A DNA stretch of 42,492 bases from contig JANYJD010000329.1 of assembly GCA_025358555.1 (NCBI GenBank), positions 1 to 42,492 on the forward strand, read 5' to 3'. This stretch comes from Rhodoferax sp. GTDB lineage: Bacteria; Pseudomonadota; Gammaproteobacteria; Burkholderiales; Burkholderiaceae_C. Below the pieces are notes generated by a model. It saw only the letters and a program-made list of their open reading frames with translations, searched no databases and had not been told where the DNA came from. How positions within the stretch are numbered: the stretch's first letter is position 1; each line of letters opens with the position of its first letter. Position numbers and translations under genes: made by a program. Shown here one piece after another: positions 3,601 through 15,948 of the stretch.

Positions 3601-4492
3601 CAGCCGGGCCATGCCGATGGGCAAGCTCTGCCGTGCGGGCCATGCCCACAATGCCCCCCGCCGGGCCGCTCAAAATCGCATCCTTGCCCTGGAACGCATG
3701 CGCATCGGTCAAGCCGCCGGACGACTGCATGAAGAACAGCTTGACGCCCGGCATCTCGGCGGCCACTTGCTGCACATACCGGCGCAGGATGGGCGACAGG
3801 TACGCATCGACCACGGTTGTGTCGCCCCGGCTCACAAACTTCATCATCGGACTGGTTTCATGCGACGTGCTGATCTGCGTAAAGCCAATGTCCTCGGCAA
3901 TGCGCTTGGCCGTTTTTTCATGCGACGTATGGCGGTAACCATGCATAAAAACGATTGAAACACTGTGTAGCCCTCGTCCATATTGCATAGTTAGCTCTTC
4001 TTTTAATAGTAATTCATCCAGCGGAAGAATCACCTCGCCCTGCGCACCCACACGCTCTTGCGCCTCCACCACGGCGCTGTAAAGAAGCTCGGGCAGCACG
4101 ATGCGGCGGTCAAACAGGCGTGGCCGGTTCTGGTAGGCGATGCGCAGCGCATCGCGAAAGCCGCGTGTGGTCACCAGCAGCGTGGGCTCGCCCTTGCGCT
4201 CCAGCAGCGCATTGGTCGCCACCGTGGTGCCCATCTTCACGCACTCCACCAGCTCGGGCGTGACCGGCTCGCCCGCTTTCAATCCAAGAAGATGCCGGAT
4301 GCCGGCCACCGCAGCATCGCGGTATTGCTCGGGGTTCTCGGACAGCAGCTTGTGCGTGACGAGCGAGAACGTGCCGTCGGCGCTGGGCCGCTTTGCAACG
4401 ATATCGGTAAAAGTGCCGCCGCGGTCAATCCAGAATTGCCAGCGTTTGGGAGGGGGGGGTCCGCTTGAAGTAAGGGGGTTAGTCTGGATCAT
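635..4492 (-). CDS. Hydantoinase/5-oxoprolinase (HyuA+HyuB fused) family protein
   Basis: [112 protein letters not shown]. Confidence 0.95.
1498..1587. repeat. 90-bp inverted-repeat element inside the hydantoinase ORF
   Basis: aattaattggggtcagatccccattattt (left) versus aaataattgggatctgaccccaattaatt (right), one internal mismatch; length is a multiple of 3. Confidence 0.85.
2306..2350 (+). repeat. Dispersed repeat copy G, antisense inside the hydantoinase ORF
   Basis: tattttatagcgcgttgtgcatgtcggacgagggcc, compare copy B tatttatagctgtttatgcacgttagacgagggc. Confidence 0.55.
3538..3605. repeat. G/C-rich imperfect palindrome inside the hydantoinase ORF
   Basis: gccctccccctcaccctctgccctcaggggcgagggagcc; encodes [16 protein letters not shown]; resembles the CTCCCTCNCCCC-type intergenic palindromes recalled from proteobacterial genomes. 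Confidence 0.55.
3955..4020 (-). repeat. Dispersed repeat copy F, sense orientation inside the hydantoinase ORF
   Basis: Minus: actattaaaagaagagctaactatgcaatatggacgagggctacacag. Confidence 0.65.
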
Positions 4493-4577
4493 TTTCTATG
4501 CTGCACTTTTCAAATCGGGTCATGCACACAACATGCAGGATGGCACGGAAGGCAAGTCTACGCGCAGTAAAACGCCT

Positions 4578-5444
4578 CTACAAAATGCAGGTGCGTCGGG
4601 CCTGCGCAGCAGGTGTAGAAGACGAAAACGGCGCAAAGAGTTCACTGCAATCAAGCAATGAAAGCGGCTTGAGCCCGGTGGCCGCCGCAATGGCATGGGC
4701 GTAGGGCGGCATGTTGGTGCATTCCAGCACCACAGAGCGCAGCGCGGGTGCGCGCCGCTTCAACGCCTGCGCAGCCGCCACCACGTCGGCCTGGGCCAGG
4801 GGCACATCCAGCGTGGTCTGGTTGCCCAGAATGGTGCGGGCAAAGGAGCCGTGCGGGTCCACCCCCTGCACCAGCACATCGGCCAAGCGCGCAGATGGCA
4901 CGCCTGCCCCGCGCAAATGGGCACGCCCCAGGCGCGCTGCGCTGATGGTCAACACGCCTACTTGCGGCTCGCGCGCCAGCAGGCGCGGCAGCAGCAACAG
5001 GCTGGAAGTCACCACAGGCACTGCCACAGCGGCCTGCAGCTCGCGTTGCAGTAGCACCAAAAAGCCGCAACTCGTGGTGATGGCGCGCGCACCATCGGCT
5101 TCAAGCTGGCACACCGCTTGGGTGAAAGGCAGGAGCAAACCCCCCGCCCGCAGTCCGGCAGCGCTCTGCACCACTTTGGCGGGAAAGGCTCCTTGCACCA
5201 CAGCGCGCCGCGTGGGCACCGGGTAGGACTCGGGATTGCCAAGGTCTCCCGGCGGTCGGGGAAAGTGGGTGTCCAGCATCACCAGGCCCAGAAAGCCGTG
5301 GCGGTGAACGCTCGGGTGCTGAAGGCTATGGTTCTGCGGGCCGCTCGCAACTCCATTTTGAACCCCCAAGGGAAACACCGGAGCAGGTGGCGCGGGAATT
5401 GCACTTATGCTGGAAGCCTTTGTCATCCAACCATTGTCATCCAC
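4578..5444 (-). CDS. Aspartate/glutamate/hydantoin racemase-like protein (start uncertain)
   Basis: GLVMLDTHFPRPPGDLGNPESY; Cys motifs ITTSCGFL and LECTNMPPYA. Confidence 0.7.
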   Translation of the reverse strand: MDDNGWMTKASSISAIPAPPAPVFPLGVQNGVASGPQNHSLQHPSVHRHGFLGLVMLDTHFPRPPGDLGNPESYPVPTRRAVVQGAFPAKVVQSAAGLRAGGLLLPFTQAVCQLEADGARAITTSCGFLVLLQRELQAAVAVPVVTSSLLLLPRLLAREPQVGVLTISAARLGRAHLRGAGVPSARLADVLVQGVDPHGSFARTILGNQTTLDVPLAQADVVAAAQALKRRAPALRSVVLECTNMPPYAHAIAAATGLKPLSLLDCSELFAPFSSSTPAAQARRTCIL

Positions 5445-9684: not shown

Positions 9685-9717
9685 AGTGCGCACTAGACTT
9701 GGGTTTAGTGTACACTA
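9685..9717. promoter_or_regulatory. Candidate paired operator upstream of the VapBC-like module
   Basis: Perfect palindromes agtgcgcact (9685-9694) and tagtgtacacta (9706-9717), centres 22 bp apart, just upstream of the antitoxin ATG at 9726. Confidence 0.5.
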
Positions 9718-9725
9718 CTATCATC

Positions 9726-9953
9726 ATGCTGCGCAATGTCACGCTTTCTGCCGAAGACCTGTTGATCGCCCGCGCCCGTGAGAAAGCGGGCGCCGCACAA
9801 ACCACGCTCAACGTCGAATTTCGCAAATGGCTGGCAGAGTACGTCGGCGCGCAAGACAGCGCGGCTGTAGGCCGGTTTCGCGACGTGATGCAGCAATTTG
9901 GCGCAGTGGACGCCGGGCGCAGCTTCACACGAGACGAAATGAATGAGCGCTGA
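9726..9953 (+). CDS. VapB-like antitoxin
   Basis: Small protein MLRNVTLSAEDLLIARAREKAGAAQTTLNVEFRKWLAEYVG... located before a PIN-domain toxin; ATG at 9726 preferred over 9699 because the palindromic operator region overlaps 9699. Confidence 0.7.
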   Translation: MLRNVTLSAEDLLIARAREKAGAAQTTLNVEFRKWLAEYVGAQDSAAVGRFRDVMQQFGAVDAGRSFTRDEMNER

Positions 9954-10077
9954 AAACGTAAGCGCTATTACGGGAGCGATCACAGCGTGACCGCAGAAAC
10001 CATCCGCTCATAACGCGTCTGCTCACAAAATGTGATCGCCAAAAAAACGCCGGCACACAAAACGCGAGCAAAAAGCC

Positions 10078-10533
10078 ATGAGCACAGAAAGCGGCGCCCT
10101 CTTTTTTCTTGACACCAACATTTTCGTCTACGCCCTGCTGGCCAGCGAGCCGCCGAAAAAGCAGCGCGCCTTGCAATTGGTAGAGCAAGCCCTGGCCAGC
10201 CACCGGGGTTGCGTCAGTTACCAGGTGATTCAGGAATTTGCCAACGTGGCTACGCGCAAATTCGCACAGCGCTTCACCACCGACCAATGCAAGCAGTTCA
10301 TCGATGCTGCCATGCAGCCGTTGAACCGGGTGGCCTCCAGCCCGCAGCTGCTAAACGCCGCGCTTGATCTGCAGGCCGAGACCCGCTACAGCTTCTACGA
10401 CAGCCTGGTCATCGCCGCCGCCCTGCAAGCGCAGGCCGATGTGCTGTACACCGAAGACCTGCAACACCACCAACTCATCGCAGGCACCCTGCGCATCGTG
10501 AATCCGTTTTTGACGGTGGCCAATGAAGTTTGA
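10078..10533 (+). CDS. PIN-domain ribonuclease toxin (VapC-like)
   Basis: ALFFLDTNIFVYALL N-terminal PIN motif; YSFYDSLVIAAALQAQADVLYTEDLQH C-terminal PIN acidic residues. Confidence 0.9.
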   Translation: MSTESGALFFLDTNIFVYALLASEPPKKQRALQLVEQALASHRGCVSYQVIQEFANVATRKFAQRFTTDQCKQFIDAAMQPLNRVASSPQLLNAALDLQAETRYSFYDSLVIAAALQAQADVLYTEDLQHHQLIAGTLRIVNPFLTVANEV

Positions 10534-10550
10534 TCGGCCACCGCGATACT

Positions 10551-10610
10551 ACGATTTAAATAGCTTCTCATGCACTGTAGACGGGGGCTACAGCCCGGTC
10601 TAACCCCCAA
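10551..10610 (+). repeat. Dispersed repeat copy A
   Basis: atttaaatagcttctcatgcactgtagacgggggctacagcccggtctaaccccc. Confidence 0.75.
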
Positions 10611-10640
10611 AAAAAACGAAAGCCGCATATAGCGGCTTTC
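10609..10640 (-). terminator. Rho-independent terminator of the tracrRNA
   Basis: gaaagccgc-tatat-gcggctttc followed by cg/T8 on the minus strand. Confidence 0.85.
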
Positions 10641-10702
10641 CATTTGGTGCATCTTTCAGCTTGTTAGCGTTCAGAGCTCATATCCCAATCGATAAGTCCT
10701 TG
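10609..10702 (-). ncRNA. Predicted tracrRNA for the type II-C Cas9
   Basis: Minus strand: (tgctaatat extended -10) ...cttatcgattgggatatgagctctgaacgctaacaagctgaaagatgcaccaaatggaaagccgctatatgcggctttcgtttttttt. Contains an anti-repeat (22-nt perfect complement of the repeat-like unit after cas2), a CTGAAAGATGCACC segment resembling the N. meningitidis tracrRNA CTGAAAAGATGTGCC segment as recalled, and a 9-bp-stem terminator with 8 T. Confidence 0.85.
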
Positions 10703-10754
10703 AATATTAGCATGTAACAAGGTACAACCGAGCCATATTTAAAAGGACATGTCA

Positions 10755-13700
10755 ATGTCAGCAATGCGGTACGGGCTCGCGCTTGATTTAGGTTCAACAT
10801 CACTCGGCTGGGCCATGATTCGGCTGAATTCCGACAATCCGCCTGCGCCTGTCGCGGTCATCAAAGCGGGTGTGCGAATTTTCTCGGACGGCCGCAACCC
10901 CAAAGACGGCTCTTCTTTGGCGGTGACGCGCCGCGATGCGCGGGCCATGCGGCGGCGCCGTGACCGTCTTCTGAAGCGCAAAGCGCGAATGACACGATCA
11001 CTGATCGAGCACGGCTTTTTTCCGGCGGACGAGGCGCAACGCAAAAATCTGGTCACGTTGAATCCCTACTCACTCCGTGCAAAAGGGCTCGACGTTGCTC
11101 TCACGCCCGCAGAGTTTGGACGCGCCCTCTTCCACATCAACCAGCGCCGTGGCTTCAAAAGCAACCGCAAGACTGACAAAAAAGACAACGACAGCGGCGC
11201 CTTGAAAACCGCCATCAACACGTTGCGCGAGGCCATGAAGCAGGAGAACTACCGCTCGGTGGGCGAGTGGCTACACAAGAGGGATTCGGTGGGCGCTACT
11301 GTTCGCGCCCGTTTTCGACAGGAAAAAGTCACCAAAGACGACGGCAAAACCAAAATCAACAAGAGCTATGACCTGTACATCGACCGGGCGATGATCTCGG
11401 ACGAGTTCGACGCGCTTTGGCACAAGCAAGCCGAGCTCAATCCTGCACTTTTCACAGAGGCAGCGCGGGCAGACCTGAAAGACGTGCTGTTGCACCAGCG
11501 CCCGCTCAAACCCGTCAAACCGGGCCGCTGCACCCTAATGCCCGACGAGGAGCGGGCGCCGCTGGCCTTGCCCAGCACGCAGCGATTTCGCATGTACCAA
11601 GAGGTCAACAACCTGCGGATTCTGCGGGACGGCCTCAAAGAAGAAGCGCTTACCGTGCAGCAACGCAACGACCTCATCGAGGCGCTGGAGCAGCACAGCA
11701 AACGCAGCTTCACGCAAATCAAGAAGCTGCTGGGCACGGGCGGTGGCGTGCAGTTCAACTTTGAAGACCCGAAGCGCCAGGAGCTCAAAGGCAATGTGAC
11801 CAGCGCAATTTTGAGTGACGCAGATTATTTTGGCAAAGCCTGGTTTGGGTTTGCTGAAGCAAAACAGGACGCCATCGTGGTGCAACTCGTCACAGAAGAG
11901 AACGAAGCCAAACTGGTGCGCTGGCTGCAAGAAGAAACCGGTATCGACGAGCCCCGCGCGGAGGCCATCGCCAATGCGGGCCTGCCCGACGGCTATGGCA
12001 GTCTGTGCGCTAAAGCCTTGGCGCGCATCCTGCCAGAGCTTCGCAACAGCGTCATCACTTACGACAAGGCCGTGCTGGCCGCGGGGTTTGAGCACCACAG
12101 CAATATCAGCCCGGCTGCCACCGGAGAAATCTTGCCCGAGCTGCCTTACTACGGCATTCCCCTCCGGCGCCACGTGGGTTTTGGCACCGGCGTGCCGGAA
12201 GACCGCGAAGAAAAACGCTACGGCAAAATCGCCAACCCCACGGTTCACATCGGGTTGAATCAAGTCCGACTGGTGGTCAACGCGCTGATTAAGCGCTACG
12301 GCCACCCCAGTGAGGTGATTGTGGAGCTGGCGCGGGATCTAAAGCAAAGCAAGGAGCAGCGCGACGAAGACAGCAAACGCCAGGCAGACAACCAGCGCCG
12401 AAATGCCCGCATGCGTGCGGATATCGCCACGACACTGGACACCAGCCCGGAGCGAGTCAGGATGGCCGACATCCAGAAGATGATCTTGTGGGAGGAGTTG
12501 AGTTTTGACCCGGCCGACCGGCGCTGCCCGTATTCAGGCGTGCAAATCAGCGTTGGCATGCTGCTAAGCGAGCGGGTTGAGATTGAGCATATCCTGCCGT
12601 TTTCCGACACGCTGGACGACAGCCTGAACAACAAAACCGTGGCTCTGCGGCAGGCGAACCGGGTCAAAGGCAACCGTACTCCGTGGCAGGCTAAAAACGA
12701 TTTTGCGGCGCAAGGCTGGGCCTATGAAGGCATTTTGAACCGCGCAGAGCTGATGCCCAAATTCAAACGCTATCGCTTTGCGGAAGATGGCTACCAACGC
12801 TGGCTGAAAGAAGACGCTGGGTTTTTGGCGCGCGCCCTGAATGACACGCGCCACTTGAGCAAAGTAGCCAAGGAATACTTGAGCCTGATCTGCCCGCAAA
12901 ACACCCGCGCCATTCCCGGCCGGATGACGGCGATGCTGCGGGCCAAGTTTGGGCTGAACGATGTGCTGGGCGTTGATGGCATCAAAAACCGCAATGACCA
13001 CCGGCACCACGCGGTGGATGCCTGCGTGATTGGGGTCACCGATCAGGGTCTGCTACAGCGTTTTGCCAAAGCCAGCGCGAGCACCCGTGAGCAGCAACTT
13101 AATCGTTTGGTTGAAAACATGCCGCCCCCATGGGGCAAGACGATGGACAGTTACCGAGAACACGTGAAACGTGCGATTGACAACATCTGGGTGAGCCACA
13201 AGCCGGATCATGGGCATGAGGGTGCCATGCACAACGACACGGCTTATGGCTTATTGGGCAACGGCCGGGTCAGCGTGCACAAAATGGTTGACGGCAAACG
13301 GGAGCGGATTGAAGACAACTTGAAGGTGATTGAGTTCACATCTGCAAAATCTGTTGCGCGCCATGGTTTGTTGCCCAATGGCGAGCACCGACCGTACAAG
13401 GGCTACAAGGGTGATAGCAACTACTGCATTGAGATTGTTCGCAATGACAAGGGCAAATGGGAAGGGGAGGTGATTTCGACTTTTGAGGCGTACCAACTGG
13501 TGCGGGCGCATGGGGTGGCGCGGTTGCGGCATCCGACGTTAAGCCTGAGTGGAAAGGCGCTGGTCATTCGGTTAATTGTCGACGACGTGATCACTCTTGT
13601 TCACGATGATCAACATAGGGTCCTGCGTCTAGCTTATGCCGCTGCCGCAGGTACGCTCGCATTTGCCGACATTCAAGAAGCAAATGTGGATAAGCGGACG

Positions 13701-13817
13701 CGATCCAAAGAATTGTCGTACGTGTTTAAAACCGCTGGGTCACTCCAAAAATCCAAAGCCCGCCGCGTCACCATTTCCCCCATCGGTGAACTCCGCGATC
13801 CGGGTTTCACAGCATGA
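10755..13817 (+). CDS. cas9: CRISPR-associated endonuclease Cas9, type II-C size class (about 1020 aa); ATG at 10755 or 10749
   Basis: RuvC-I YGLALDLGSTSLGWAMI; Arg-rich bridge RRDARAMRRRRDRLLKRK; RuvC-II EVIVELARDLKQSKEQR; HNH VEIEHILPFSDTLDDSLNNKTVALRQANRVKGNRTPW; RuvC-III NRNDHRHHAVDACVIG; followed by cas1/cas2 with no csn2/cas4. Confidence 0.98.
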   Translation: MSAMRYGLALDLGSTSLGWAMIRLNSDNPPAPVAVIKAGVRIFSDGRNPKDGSSLAVTRRDARAMRRRRDRLLKRKARMTRSLIEHGFFPADEAQRKNLVTLNPYSLRAKGLDVALTPAEFGRALFHINQRRGFKSNRKTDKKDNDSGALKTAINTLREAMKQENYRSVGEWLHKRDSVGATVRARFRQEKVTKDDGKTKINKSYDLYIDRAMISDEFDALWHKQAELNPALFTEAARADLKDVLLHQRPLKPVKPGRCTLMPDEERAPLALPSTQRFRMYQEVNNLRILRDGLKEEALTVQQRNDLIEALEQHSKRSFTQIKKLLGTGGGVQFNFEDPKRQELKGNVTSAILSDADYFGKAWFGFAEAKQDAIVVQLVTEENEAKLVRWLQEETGIDEPRAEAIANAGLPDGYGSLCAKALARILPELRNSVITYDKAVLAAGFEHHSNISPAATGEILPELPYYGIPLRRHVGFGTGVPEDREEKRYGKIANPTVHIGLNQVRLVVNALIKRYGHPSEVIVELARDLKQSKEQRDEDSKRQADNQRRNARMRADIATTLDTSPERVRMADIQKMILWEELSFDPADRRCPYSGVQISVGMLLSERVEIEHILPFSDTLDDSLNNKTVALRQANRVKGNRTPWQAKNDFAAQGWAYEGILNRAELMPKFKRYRFAEDGYQRWLKEDAGFLARALNDTRHLSKVAKEYLSLICPQNTRAIPGRMTAMLRAKFGLNDVLGVDGIKNRNDHRHHAVDACVIGVTDQGLLQRFAKASASTREQQLNRLVENMPPPWGKTMDSYREHVKRAIDNIWVSHKPDHGHEGAMHNDTAYGLLGNGRVSVHKMVDGKRERIEDNLKVIEFTSAKSVARHGLLPNGEHRPYKGYKGDSNYCIEIVRNDKGKWEGEVISTFEAYQLVRAHGVARLRHPTLSLSGKALVIRLIVDDVITLVHDDQHRVLRLAYAAAAGTLAFADIQEANVDKRTRSKELSYVFKTAGSLQKSKARRVTISPIGELRDPGFTA

Positions 13818-14092
13818 ACATGGCATTCGAATGGGATCCTGCCAAGGCAGCAACCAACGTGGCCAAACACGGCGTGGCCTTTGATGAAGCGGCTTCGGCA
13901 TTTTTGGACCCCATGGCCTTGAGCGGTCCCGATCCGGACCATTCGCCAACCGAATCCCGCTATGTCACGTTTGCCTATTCACGCCTCGGTAAACTTCTGG
14001 CAATATCGCACATGTATCGGCCTGGCGGCATCCGTTTGATCAGCGCCCGTCGCGTGACGCGCTCAGAGAGGAAACTGTATGAAGAAAACTGA
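13814..14092 (+). CDS. brnT: BrnT-like (DUF497) ribonuclease toxin
   Basis: FEWDPAKAATNVAKHGVAFDEAASAFLDP...HSPTESRYVTFAYSRLGKLLAISHMYRPGGIRLISARRVTRSERKLYEEN; ATGA overlap with the cas9 stop. Confidence 0.92.
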   Translation: MNMAFEWDPAKAATNVAKHGVAFDEAASAFLDPMALSGPDPDHSPTESRYVTFAYSRLGKLLAISHMYRPGGIRLISARRVTRSERKLYEEN

Positions 14093-14336
14093 AACCGACA
14101 TGCGCACCGAATACAAACGGGCGGATTTTGCAAAGCTGGAGCGCGGCAAATTTTTTGCCGAAGTAGCCAAAGGGTCGACGGTCGCGATCCTGAATCCGAC
14201 CATTGCAAAAGCCTTTCCCTCATCGGAAGCTGTCAACGCGGCGTTGCAAGGGCTATTGACATTGACGGAACAAACAGCGCGGTTGACAGCCCGCCCCAAA
14301 CGGTCACCCCAAAAGACCGCGCGACTAAGCGCCTGA
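14079..14336 (+). CDS. Antitoxin partner of the BrnT-like toxin
   Basis: MKKTETDMRTEYKRADFAKLERGKFFAEVAKGSTVAILNPTIAKAFPSSEAVNAALQGLL; overlaps the brnT 3' end by 14 nt; matches the recalled small partner of DUF497 toxins. Confidence 0.8.
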   Translation: MKKTETDMRTEYKRADFAKLERGKFFAEVAKGSTVAILNPTIAKAFPSSEAVNAALQGLLTLTEQTARLTARPKRSPQKTARLSA

Positions 14337-14342
14337 CCCAGC

Positions 14343-15272
14343 ATGATCGGTCGCATCGTAGAGGTGGCCGATGACAACCGCCACCTGCGCATGCACCGCG
14401 GTTTCATGGTGGTGCAAGACACGGCGGGCGAGCGCAAAGAGCTGGGCCAAGTTCTGCTGGACGATATTGCCGCCGTGATTGCCAATGCGCACGGCCTCTC
14501 GTACACCAACAATTTACTGGTTGCGCTAGCTGAACGAGGCGCGCCGTTTGTGCTGTGCAGCGCGAACCATAACGCAGTTGGTATGCTGATTCCCATCGAG
14601 GGCAATTTTGAGCAAGCCAAGCGCATTGAGGCGCAAATTGCCGCGTCACAACCTACCCACAAGCGCCTGTGGGCCGCCGTGGTGCGCTCCAAGCTGGAGC
14701 AGCAGGCGGCGGCACTGGAGGCCACCGGCGCACCCACCGCGCCACTGACGGCGCTGGCCGCAAGGGTCAAAAGCGGTGACCCGGAAAATCTGGAGGCCCA
14801 GGGCGCGCGGCGCTATTGGGGCTTGCTGTTTGGCGACACATTTCGGCGCGACCAGGATGGCGGCGGACTCAACGCCATGCTGAACTACGGCTACACCGTG
14901 CTGCGCGCCACTGCGGCGCGTTCGGTCATTGCGGCTGGTCTGCACACCAGCATTGGCCTGCACCACAGCAACGACACCAATGCGATGCGTCTAGTAGACG
15001 ATTTGATGGAGCCGTTTCGCCCGATGATAGACCTCAAGGTCTGGCATTTGCACCGCAATGGCGAGGGCGAGATCACGCCCGACACCAAGCGCGCCTTGGT
15101 GCGCACGCTGTATGACGATATGCAGACCGACGTGGGTGCCACGCCTGTGATGGTGTGCATCCAAAAGCTGGCCACGTCACTGGCACAGGTGTACCTGGGT
15201 GAGCGCGATAAGCTGGACTTGCCGTTGCCCGGCCTCCCGCTTTCTCTGGCATCGTCGCTTCAAGATGAATAG
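14343..15272 (+). CDS. cas1: CRISPR-associated endonuclease Cas1 (type II)
   Basis: NLEAQGARRYWGLLFG, AGLHTSIGLHHSNDTNAMRLVDDLMEPFRPMID (E/H/D metal ligands). Confidence 0.97.
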   Translation: MIGRIVEVADDNRHLRMHRGFMVVQDTAGERKELGQVLLDDIAAVIANAHGLSYTNNLLVALAERGAPFVLCSANHNAVGMLIPIEGNFEQAKRIEAQIAASQPTHKRLWAAVVRSKLEQQAAALEATGAPTAPLTALAARVKSGDPENLEAQGARRYWGLLFGDTFRRDQDGGGLNAMLNYGYTVLRATAARSVIAAGLHTSIGLHHSNDTNAMRLVDDLMEPFRPMIDLKVWHLHRNGEGEITPDTKRALVRTLYDDMQTDVGATPVMVCIQKLATSLAQVYLGERDKLDLPLPGLPLSLASSLQDE

Positions 15273-15284
15273 CAGAATACAAAC

Positions 15285-15611
15285 ATGCTGTCGGGCTACA
15301 GACTGATGTGGGTTGTGGTGATGTTTGACCTGCCCGTGGTGGAACGCGCCGAGCGCAAAGCCGCCACGGAGTTTCGCAACGCCTTGTTGGACATGGGCTT
15401 TGCCATGAGCCAGTTCAGCATCTACATGCGTTTTTGCACCAGCCAGGCCCAGGTAGACACCTACAACAAACGGGTTGAAAATGCGCTGCCCGAGGGTGGC
15501 AAAGTCAACGTGCTGCAGTTCACCGACAAACAGTACGAGCGCATCATCAGTTTCCACGGAAAAGCCAAACAACCGGCCAATAAATCGCCCGATCAATTCG
15601 ATCTCTTCTAA
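15285..15611 (+). CDS. cas2: CRISPR-associated endoribonuclease Cas2 (type II)
   Basis: MLSGYRLMWVVVMFDLPVVERAERKAATEFRNALLDMGFAMSQFSIYMRFC; 12 nt after cas1. Confidence 0.96.
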   Translation: MLSGYRLMWVVVMFDLPVVERAERKAATEFRNALLDMGFAMSQFSIYMRFCTSQAQVDTYNKRVENALPEGGKVNVLQFTDKQYERIISFHGKAKQPANKSPDQFDLF

Positions 15612-15629: not shown

Positions 15630-15670
15630 AAACCCAAAAAACGAAAAACCCCTTGACGAATCAAGGGGTT
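15630..15670 (-). terminator. Rho-independent terminator reading on the minus strand toward cas2
   Basis: Perfect 10-bp stem aaccccttga-cgaa-tcaaggggtt (15647-15670); minus strand continues tttttcgtttttt; no T-tract in the plus direction. Confidence 0.8.
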
Positions 15671-15676
15671 ATCGCT

Positions 15677-15712
15677 GAGCTAGTCTAGTCGATTGGGATA
15701 TGAGCTCTGACC
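15677..15712 (-). CRISPR. Solitary CRISPR repeat-like unit (no array visible)
   Basis: Minus strand ggtcagagctcatatcccaatcgactagactagctc; 22 bp (15689-15710) perfect inverted match to the tracr anti-repeat at 10671-10692; GAGCT...AGCTC ends; no second copy seen in the window. The 36-nt boundaries are an estimate. Confidence 0.6.
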
Positions 15713-15715
15713 GGA

Positions 15716-15787
15716 ACCCATTTGCAAAGTGGCCCGCTGTCATGGTGGCTGATGCCACCCTGCCATCAAGCCACTCTGCAAATGGGT
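15716..15787. repeat. Inverted repeat/hairpin abutting the solitary CRISPR repeat
   Basis: acccatttgcaaagtggc (15716-15733) and gccactctgcaaatgggt (15770-15787), 17/18 paired; nested ggtggc-tgat-gccacc hairpin. Confidence 0.8.
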
Positions 15788-15830
15788 CGCGCCAAGGCGC
15801 GATGGTTGTTCAGGATGAAGGACAAACGAA

Positions 15831-15882
15831 AAACTATAATTTCAGTAGCTACTTGTGCATACTGGACAAGGGCTACAGGCCG
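15831..15882 (+). repeat. Dispersed repeat copy D
   Basis: ctataatttcagtagctacttgtgcatactggacaagggctacaggcc. Confidence 0.75.
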
Positions 15883-15948
15883 AATTGACACTAATTTATT
15901 GCCTTTTTTTCACGCCGCGCAAGCTATTTCAGCCCGCTGCCCCAAACC

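Follow-up and report, generated by a model that had tools for sequence, protein, structure and literature searches.

In a contig of Rhodoferax sp. (JANYJD010000329.1, assembly GCA_025358555.1), analysed here as a stretch of 42,492 nucleotides (nt) that we call the window, the genes for a BrnT-type toxin and a putative antitoxin stand between cas9 and cas1 of a type II-C CRISPR-Cas (clustered regularly interspaced short palindromic repeats and associated genes) operon. We propose that this pair is a type II toxin-antitoxin (TA) cassette that was inserted between the two cas genes and that acts as an addiction module stabilising the locus, a reading whose chances we put at about even. A sequence-only reading of this DNA had already offered such a role among others, and it is the one best supported by our comparison, in which TA pairs have entered the same slot of related loci repeatedly and independently.

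An intact toxin gene and its partner within a type II-C operon

The genes cas9, brnT, antitoxin, cas1 and cas2 follow closely upon one another, all in the same direction. An ATGA at 13814-13817 is common to the cas9 stop and the brnT start, brnT and the antitoxin gene overlap by 14 nt (14079-14092), the cas1 ATG follows the antitoxin stop after 6 nt, and 12 nt separate cas1 from cas2. All of these positions, overlaps and gaps, as first given by the sequence-only reading, were confirmed to the base, and its description of a II-C operon containing an intact BrnT-type pair is backed by Pfam and NCBIfam profile scores (Table 1). The type II-C gene set is complete, with a Cas9 in which both the HNH (IEH) and the RuvC (HHAVDAC) motifs are intact, a type II Cas1, and Cas2; as regards Csn2 or Cas4, nothing besides brnT and its partner lies between the cas genes. 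For cas9, the ribosome site is better at the start at 10755 than at the alternative at 10749.

BrnT matches PF04365 with 83.7 bits (cut-off 34.5), covering positions 1-77 of the 77 in the profile, and has structural relatives in the PDB in 7vd7 (8e-11) and 3u97 (9e-3). BrnT proteins form a ribonuclease (RNase) toxin family, and Lys17, His18, Phe29 and Glu86 have been tested and found to be important in Aave_1720, a BrnT-like RNase from Acidovorax (PMC10714953). In a pairing read from alignments, these residues (K17, H18, F29 and E86) correspond to K18, H19, F30 and E85 of the window protein, which is intact and on this pairing keeps the residues for RNase activity. The single-sequence structure predictions were poor for both proteins (predicted local distance difference test scores of 66 for the antitoxin and 54 for BrnT), and synonymous sites are saturated for the window's pair, so that they are unusable for dN/dS, the ratio of nonsynonymous to synonymous substitution rates.

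The partner was not recognised as a BrnA-type antitoxin, having no Pfam match up to an E value of 5 and no NCBIfam match. Of 301 genomes from the bacterial family, 16 contain a member of the partner's protein family. Most of 22 other loci with a partner homologue have brnT directly upstream, often with a similar short overlap. Since the homologues are mostly found directly downstream of brnT, the protein is predicted to be a genuine, non-BrnA partner of BrnT. Searches for this antitoxin gave nothing in plasmids at E 1e-5 and nothing in viral contigs, and PADLOC returned no match for either brnT or the antitoxin. The nearest free-standing copy of the partner, 64% identical, is found in locus L110 (G102:C2), where an intact antitoxin relative lies next to a degraded, broken-looking brnT and may be an orphan antitoxin.

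Recurrent occupation of the cas9-cas1 slot

A search for brnT in the cas9-cas1 slot that covered 59 genome loci, along with samples amounting to nearly 2,000 genome look-ups, some of them made for other queries, found it only in the window. The sequence-only reading had held that occurrence in a single genome would speak against its proposal, and for BrnT this is what the 59 loci and the wider samples show; the broader claim stands, as unrelated TA pairs are found in the same slot of other lineages. In eight other loci, the slot is filled by a RelE-type toxin (TIGR02683) and its antidote (TIGR02684), a pair of the HI1419/HI1420 type. One of these is L107 (positions 4135-4748), from the only other same-genus genome in our comparison set (G111); in a tree of 78 distinct Cas1 proteins it is the sister of the window (100/92), with a Cas1 that is 93% identical, and the next relatives, L013 and L006, have empty slots. 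The remaining seven, in which the pair sits at the cas9-cas1 joint of L021, L022, L025, L028, L033, L050 and L060, belong to a Limnohabitans-like clade, in which they are grouped with L034, L039 and L051.

In the tree of the RelE-type TA proteins, the seven Limnohabitans-like slot copies group together (100/98), with a main split that matches the one in the Cas1 tree, and the L107 pair falls among free-standing modules (100/99). We considered a single origin of all RelE-type slot pairs, which the TA tree upholds for the Limnohabitans-like clade and rejects for L107. With BrnT in the window, the L107 copy among free-standing modules and the Limnohabitans-like clade separate, the trees therefore indicate at least three independent TA acquisitions in the cas9-cas1 slot. 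Within the Limnohabitans-like clade, dN/dS ranges from 0.06 to 0.25 for the toxin and from 0.02 to 0.19 for the antidote, and the pair was inherited vertically and long retained under purifying selection.

Elsewhere the slot is closed. The cas9-cas1 gap is at most 14 nt in the remaining 67 close loci, class- and phylum-wide sampling added about 40 distant loci whose slots are empty too, and no insert other than a TA pair was found in the slot in the loci compared. Insertions at other points of the operon are a DUF4160/DUF2442 (DhiTA-like) pair between cas2 and the array (L032:12395-12917 and L038:9922-10444) and an insert resembling an insertion sequence (IS) transposase, its identity judged from open frames, between cas1 and cas2 of L044. 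Four of the five inferred operon insertions are thus TA pairs (three at cas9-cas1 and one at cas2-array), and one is an IS; on a rough estimate, the chance of four in five under random insertion is about 3e-5 if TA pairs make up 5% of what inserts and 0.007 if they make up 20%.

Insertion of the pair and its consequences for cas1

An 8-bp direct repeat, CAGCATGA, flanks the insert. In the closest relatives lacking the pair, cas9 ends in ...AAGGAGTAA(ACAGC)ATG-cas1, and the ribosome site of cas1 lies inside the end of cas9. The flanking octamer CAGCATGA fits an insertion by microhomology or target duplication in which the last codons of cas9 were lost. In the window, the brnT start occupies the position of the former cas1 start, and the Shine-Dalgarno sequence of cas1 has been lost, with a computed anti-Shine-Dalgarno energy of -0.5 kcal/mol for cas1 in the window versus -8.0 in the empty loci L013, L006 and L004. 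The same loss is seen in occupied loci taken together (rank test, p 3e-5, for loci that are not independent), and weak cas1 ribosome sites occur in some empty loci as well (L010, L024 and L051). Translation of cas1 in the window probably depends on the antitoxin gene, through re-initiation behind it.

The sequence-only reading had taken the tight overlaps to argue against a recent insertion, a view that our comparison does not bear out, as the overlap fits an insertion flanked by CAGCATGA and the closest Cas1 relatives, L107, L013 and L006, lack brnT. The ATGA overlap is partly a by-product of the insertion, because the 8-bp repeat flanks the insert and brnT may start at 13820; stemming from the insertion, the overlap is therefore no indicator of age. 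Most simply, the brnT pair arrived after the split from the same-genus sister L107. Window and L107 also differ next to the slot. The identity of their Cas9 proteins is 82-92% in the first 800 residues and falls to 35-55% over most of the last 200, so that the C-terminal, PAM-interacting (protospacer-adjacent motif) end, encoded at 13200-13800 of the window, has been swapped, despite the 93% identity of Cas1. It follows from this combination that the DNA beside the slot was exchanged, and in situ shuffling of Cas9 has been described for II-C loci (PMC12669027).

As for transcription, the cas9-relE junction of all eight RelE-type slot copies contains a predicted operator/promoter palindrome, GTATC...GATACAAT, which was also found at several free-standing RelE-type modules. 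Since the slot copies keep it, cas1 and cas2 in those loci would stand behind a TA promoter. We found no promoter-like site at the cas9-brnT or the antitoxin-cas1 junction of the window and no common operator upstream of free-standing brnT genes, and brnT in the window probably relies on the cas9 promoter for its transcription and on coupling for its translation. Thus, an earlier suggestion that operon expression is coupled to antitoxin autoregulation finds support in the RelE-type copies and none in the window's BrnT pair.

A proposed addiction role and the competing explanations

If the pair acts as an addiction module, the BrnT RNase would be restrained by a labile antitoxin, and a deletion or recombination event that removed the cas9-cas1 region would also remove the source of the antitoxin. 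The longer-lived toxin would then halt growth, so that the cells found in a population would be those that retain the locus. Furthermore, re-initiation of cas1 behind the antitoxin gene would tie the output of cas1 and cas2 to ongoing antitoxin synthesis. This reading is favoured by the history of a slot that is otherwise rigid and yet received TA pairs three times independently, with long retention in one lineage, by the share of TA pairs (four of five) among the inferred operon insertions, by the conserved toxin residues and by the lost Shine-Dalgarno sequence of cas1. In addition, a related II-C locus may reside on a plasmid, with a further TA pair some 2 kb beyond it.

Several observations weigh against it. 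Of the loci with the 78 distinct Cas1 proteins, a single one has brnT in its slot, and the assembly of that genome is fragmented into 384 contigs. The array of the window is down to one repeat, so that addiction has not preserved a working array. Within the Limnohabitans-like clade, L034 has lost the toxin and has a truncated antidote with 22 repeats kept, L039 has a 49-nt gap and L051 has an empty slot; the pair can thus go (in L034 and probably in L039) while the CRISPR array stays, and its losses, in two or three loci with arrays, show that CRISPR can do without it. In addition, a RelE-type match is present in 87 of 201 genomes of the family, and TA modules are so common that it might take no more than a site tolerant of insertions to account for the pattern.

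The strongest rival builds on this last point and holds that the cas9-cas1 junction is a recombination boundary at which the ends of cas9 are exchanged and TA pairs are neutral or selfish passengers that bring no benefit to the cas locus, or, in a variant, that a short co-directional gene pair lands there since it leaves the operon unbroken. We regard this as quite possible, given the exchange of the Cas9 end between window and L107, the shuffling described elsewhere (PMC12669027), the abundance of TA modules in the family and the finding that L034 and probably L039 have lost the pair but kept the array. Such losses in array-bearing members of the clade fit addiction and hitchhiking alike. What hitchhiking explains less well is that filled slots hold TA pairs exclusively, when four TA pairs in five insertions would be unlikely at random on the estimates given above, and that the Limnohabitans-like pair has been retained vertically for long with low dN/dS, though a selfish TA pair would show likewise. 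We consider it unlikely that the pair serves mainly for regulation, with the TA promoter and antitoxin translation controlling cas1 and cas2 and raising the adaptation genes under stress or infection independently of cas9. The palindrome in all eight RelE-type copies and the loss of the cas1 Shine-Dalgarno sequence in occupied loci would agree with such control, which is at odds with the lack of a promoter-like site at the window joints, the lack of a common operator for free-standing brnT and the weak cas1 ribosome sites of the empty L010, L024 and L051.

The sequence-only reading had also raised an abortive-infection backup, in which interference with Cas9 expression by a phage or an anti-CRISPR would free the toxin and halt the infected cell. 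BrnT does belong to an RNase toxin family (PMC10714953), and TA modules that guard CRISPR loci exist elsewhere (CreTA), but we found no sensor, no Cas9-dependent repression element and no PADLOC match for brnT or its antitoxin, the array of the window is nearly absent, and pairs have been lost in array-bearing relatives, all of which makes this role quite improbable. Most improbable of all is an assembly artefact, that is, a chimeric contig in which a cas operon was fused with a brnT module that stands alone elsewhere. The assembly is highly fragmented and the same genome has other BrnT modules, but the antitoxins of these other copies show an identity of only about 30-43%, the open reading frames are consistent across both junctions, which are over 10 kb away from the ends of a single contig, and same-slot pairs occur in independent assemblies, including the L107 contig and Limnohabitans planktonicus II-D5 (L025).

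Relation to known systems

The pair resembles BrnT/BrnA (PF04365; Brucella abortus, PDB 3u97) in its toxin family, its toxin-antitoxin gene order and its conserved RNase residues, and differs from it in that the antitoxin has no match to BrnA in Pfam, in that it lies inside a cas operon and is not free-standing, and in that no promoter of its own was recognised. In L107 and the Limnohabitans-like clade, the same slot holds the HI1419/HI1420-type RelE-antidote pairs (TIGR02683/TIGR02684), and unlike the window pair they have another toxin family, an unrelated antitoxin and their own operator/promoter. CreTA, an RNA-based addiction module that guards type I CRISPR-Cas loci, is likewise tied to such a locus. 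In CreTA, however, the toxin is an RNA repressed by Cascade with the CRISPR RNA-like CreA, a degenerate repeat RNA that directs Cas to the toxin promoter. The window pair consists of two proteins, and nothing points to its repression by Cas proteins; no CreA-like degenerate repeat was found near brnT with up to 3 mismatches to the 19-nt core, a threshold that more degenerate copies would escape.

Addiction modules guarding CRISPR-Cas are thus known (CreTA), and what appears to be new here is the presence of protein TA pairs inside the cas9-cas1 joint. In the open-access literature, which we covered only in part, we found no description of TA genes between cas9 and cas1, in line with the sequence-only reading, to which the arrangement was likewise not known.

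The reduced locus and its neighbours

With Cas9, Cas1, Cas2, a candidate trans-activating CRISPR RNA (tracrRNA) upstream of cas9 and a repeat 72 nt after cas2, the locus resembles other type II-C systems, from which it is set apart by the two-gene insert between cas9 and cas1 and by having one repeat and zero spacers. The candidate tracrRNA matches the CRISPR repeat exactly over 19 nt, ends in a terminator made of a hairpin and a T run (predicted structure, z -2.6) and is kept upstream of cas9 in L004 and L010. The repeat sits where close relatives carry their arrays (the distance from cas2 to the array is 68-77 nt in almost all of them), and besides the anti-repeat no second copy was found in the window or the genome assembly. 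As all genes of the locus are orthologous to those of array-bearing loci, it is read as a reduced II-C locus; the sequence-only reading had the cas genes right and left the shrinkage of the array to one repeat unmentioned. The array of L013 likewise consists of one repeat, and in both the window (15716-15787) and L013, a hairpin-forming inverted repeat follows immediately. Further downstream, at 15830-15890, lies an interspersed repeat of about 55 bp with about 40 copies genome-wide. A scan of Rfam gave no match.

Table 1. Features of the cas operon and its surroundings, in window coordinates
Feature	Position	Strand	Evidence and remarks
cas9 (II-C)	10755..13817	+	NCBIfam TIGR01865, 2e-184; alternative start 10749
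brnT toxin gene	13814..14092	+	Pfam PF04365, 1.2e-23; alternative start 13820
Predicted non-BrnA antitoxin gene, brnT partner	14079..14336	+	No Pfam/NCBIfam match; homologues directly downstream of free-standing brnT
cas1 (type II), without its own Shine-Dalgarno sequence	14343..15272	+	TIGR03639, 5.5e-70
cas2	15285..15611	+	TIGR01573, 2.8e-17
8-bp direct repeat CAGCATGA around the insert, left copy	13810..13817	+	
8-bp direct repeat CAGCATGA around the insert, right copy	14339..14346	+	
Candidate tracrRNA with anti-repeat and terminator	10608..10695	-	Sequence and predicted structure
Terminator hairpin between cas2 and repeat	15647..15670	-	Same sequence in L004, L010, L013 and L107
Single CRISPR repeat, 36 nt, without spacers	15682..15717	-	Same sequence as the repeat in the arrays of L010 and L032
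VapB-like small protein gene, neighbour outside the operon	9699..9953	+	No Pfam/NCBIfam match; 73% identical copy in L029
PIN-domain (VapC-like) gene, neighbour	10078..10533	+	PF01850, 4e-12; 81% copy in L029, fragment in L008

The five-gene operon of the sequence-only reading has to be complemented by a VapBC-like pair just upstream of cas9, made up of a PIN-domain gene and a small gene whose product we take to be VapB-like. Similar PIN pairs are found near II-C loci, at differing positions, in the window (9699-10533), L029 (8010-8690) and, as a fragment, L008 (7027-7245). The PIN gene invites comparison with PcrIIC1, a PIN-domain accessory of some II-C loci; unlike PcrIIC1, it has a VapB-like partner, and because this small partner gene is present, a VapBC pair is the more likely identity. 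Other TA-like pairs lie beside related operons. In L024, one of the RelE type precedes cas9, and on the 149-kb plasmid pTEGF4 of Limnohabitans sp. TEGF004 (L214), a PemK/MazF-type pair stands about 2 kb past the II-C locus, downstream of its array region.

Implications

If the pattern holds, it would offer a direct test of whether CRISPR-Cas9 loci are shielded from loss by protein TA pairs; the answer known so far, CreTA, concerns RNA-based modules of type I systems. Natural replicates exist within one clade of Burkholderiales, with BrnT, the RelE type and emptied slots, and sequenced strains such as Limnohabitans planktonicus II-D5 are among them. In a wider and rather doubtful extension, interchangeable protein TA cassettes at the cas9-cas1 joint may form a functional module that recurs in this II-C lineage, keeping effector and adaptation genes linked in the face of in situ exchange or loss of cas9 and putting cas1 and cas2 under the antitoxin, as a protein-based type II counterpart of CreTA. 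Even if the pairs are merely hitchhiking, the cas9-cas1 joint would still be marked as a hotspot of insertion and shuffling. On our preferred reading, that of addiction, the recurrence of TA pairs in this slot suggests that they help to keep the immune locus from being lost.

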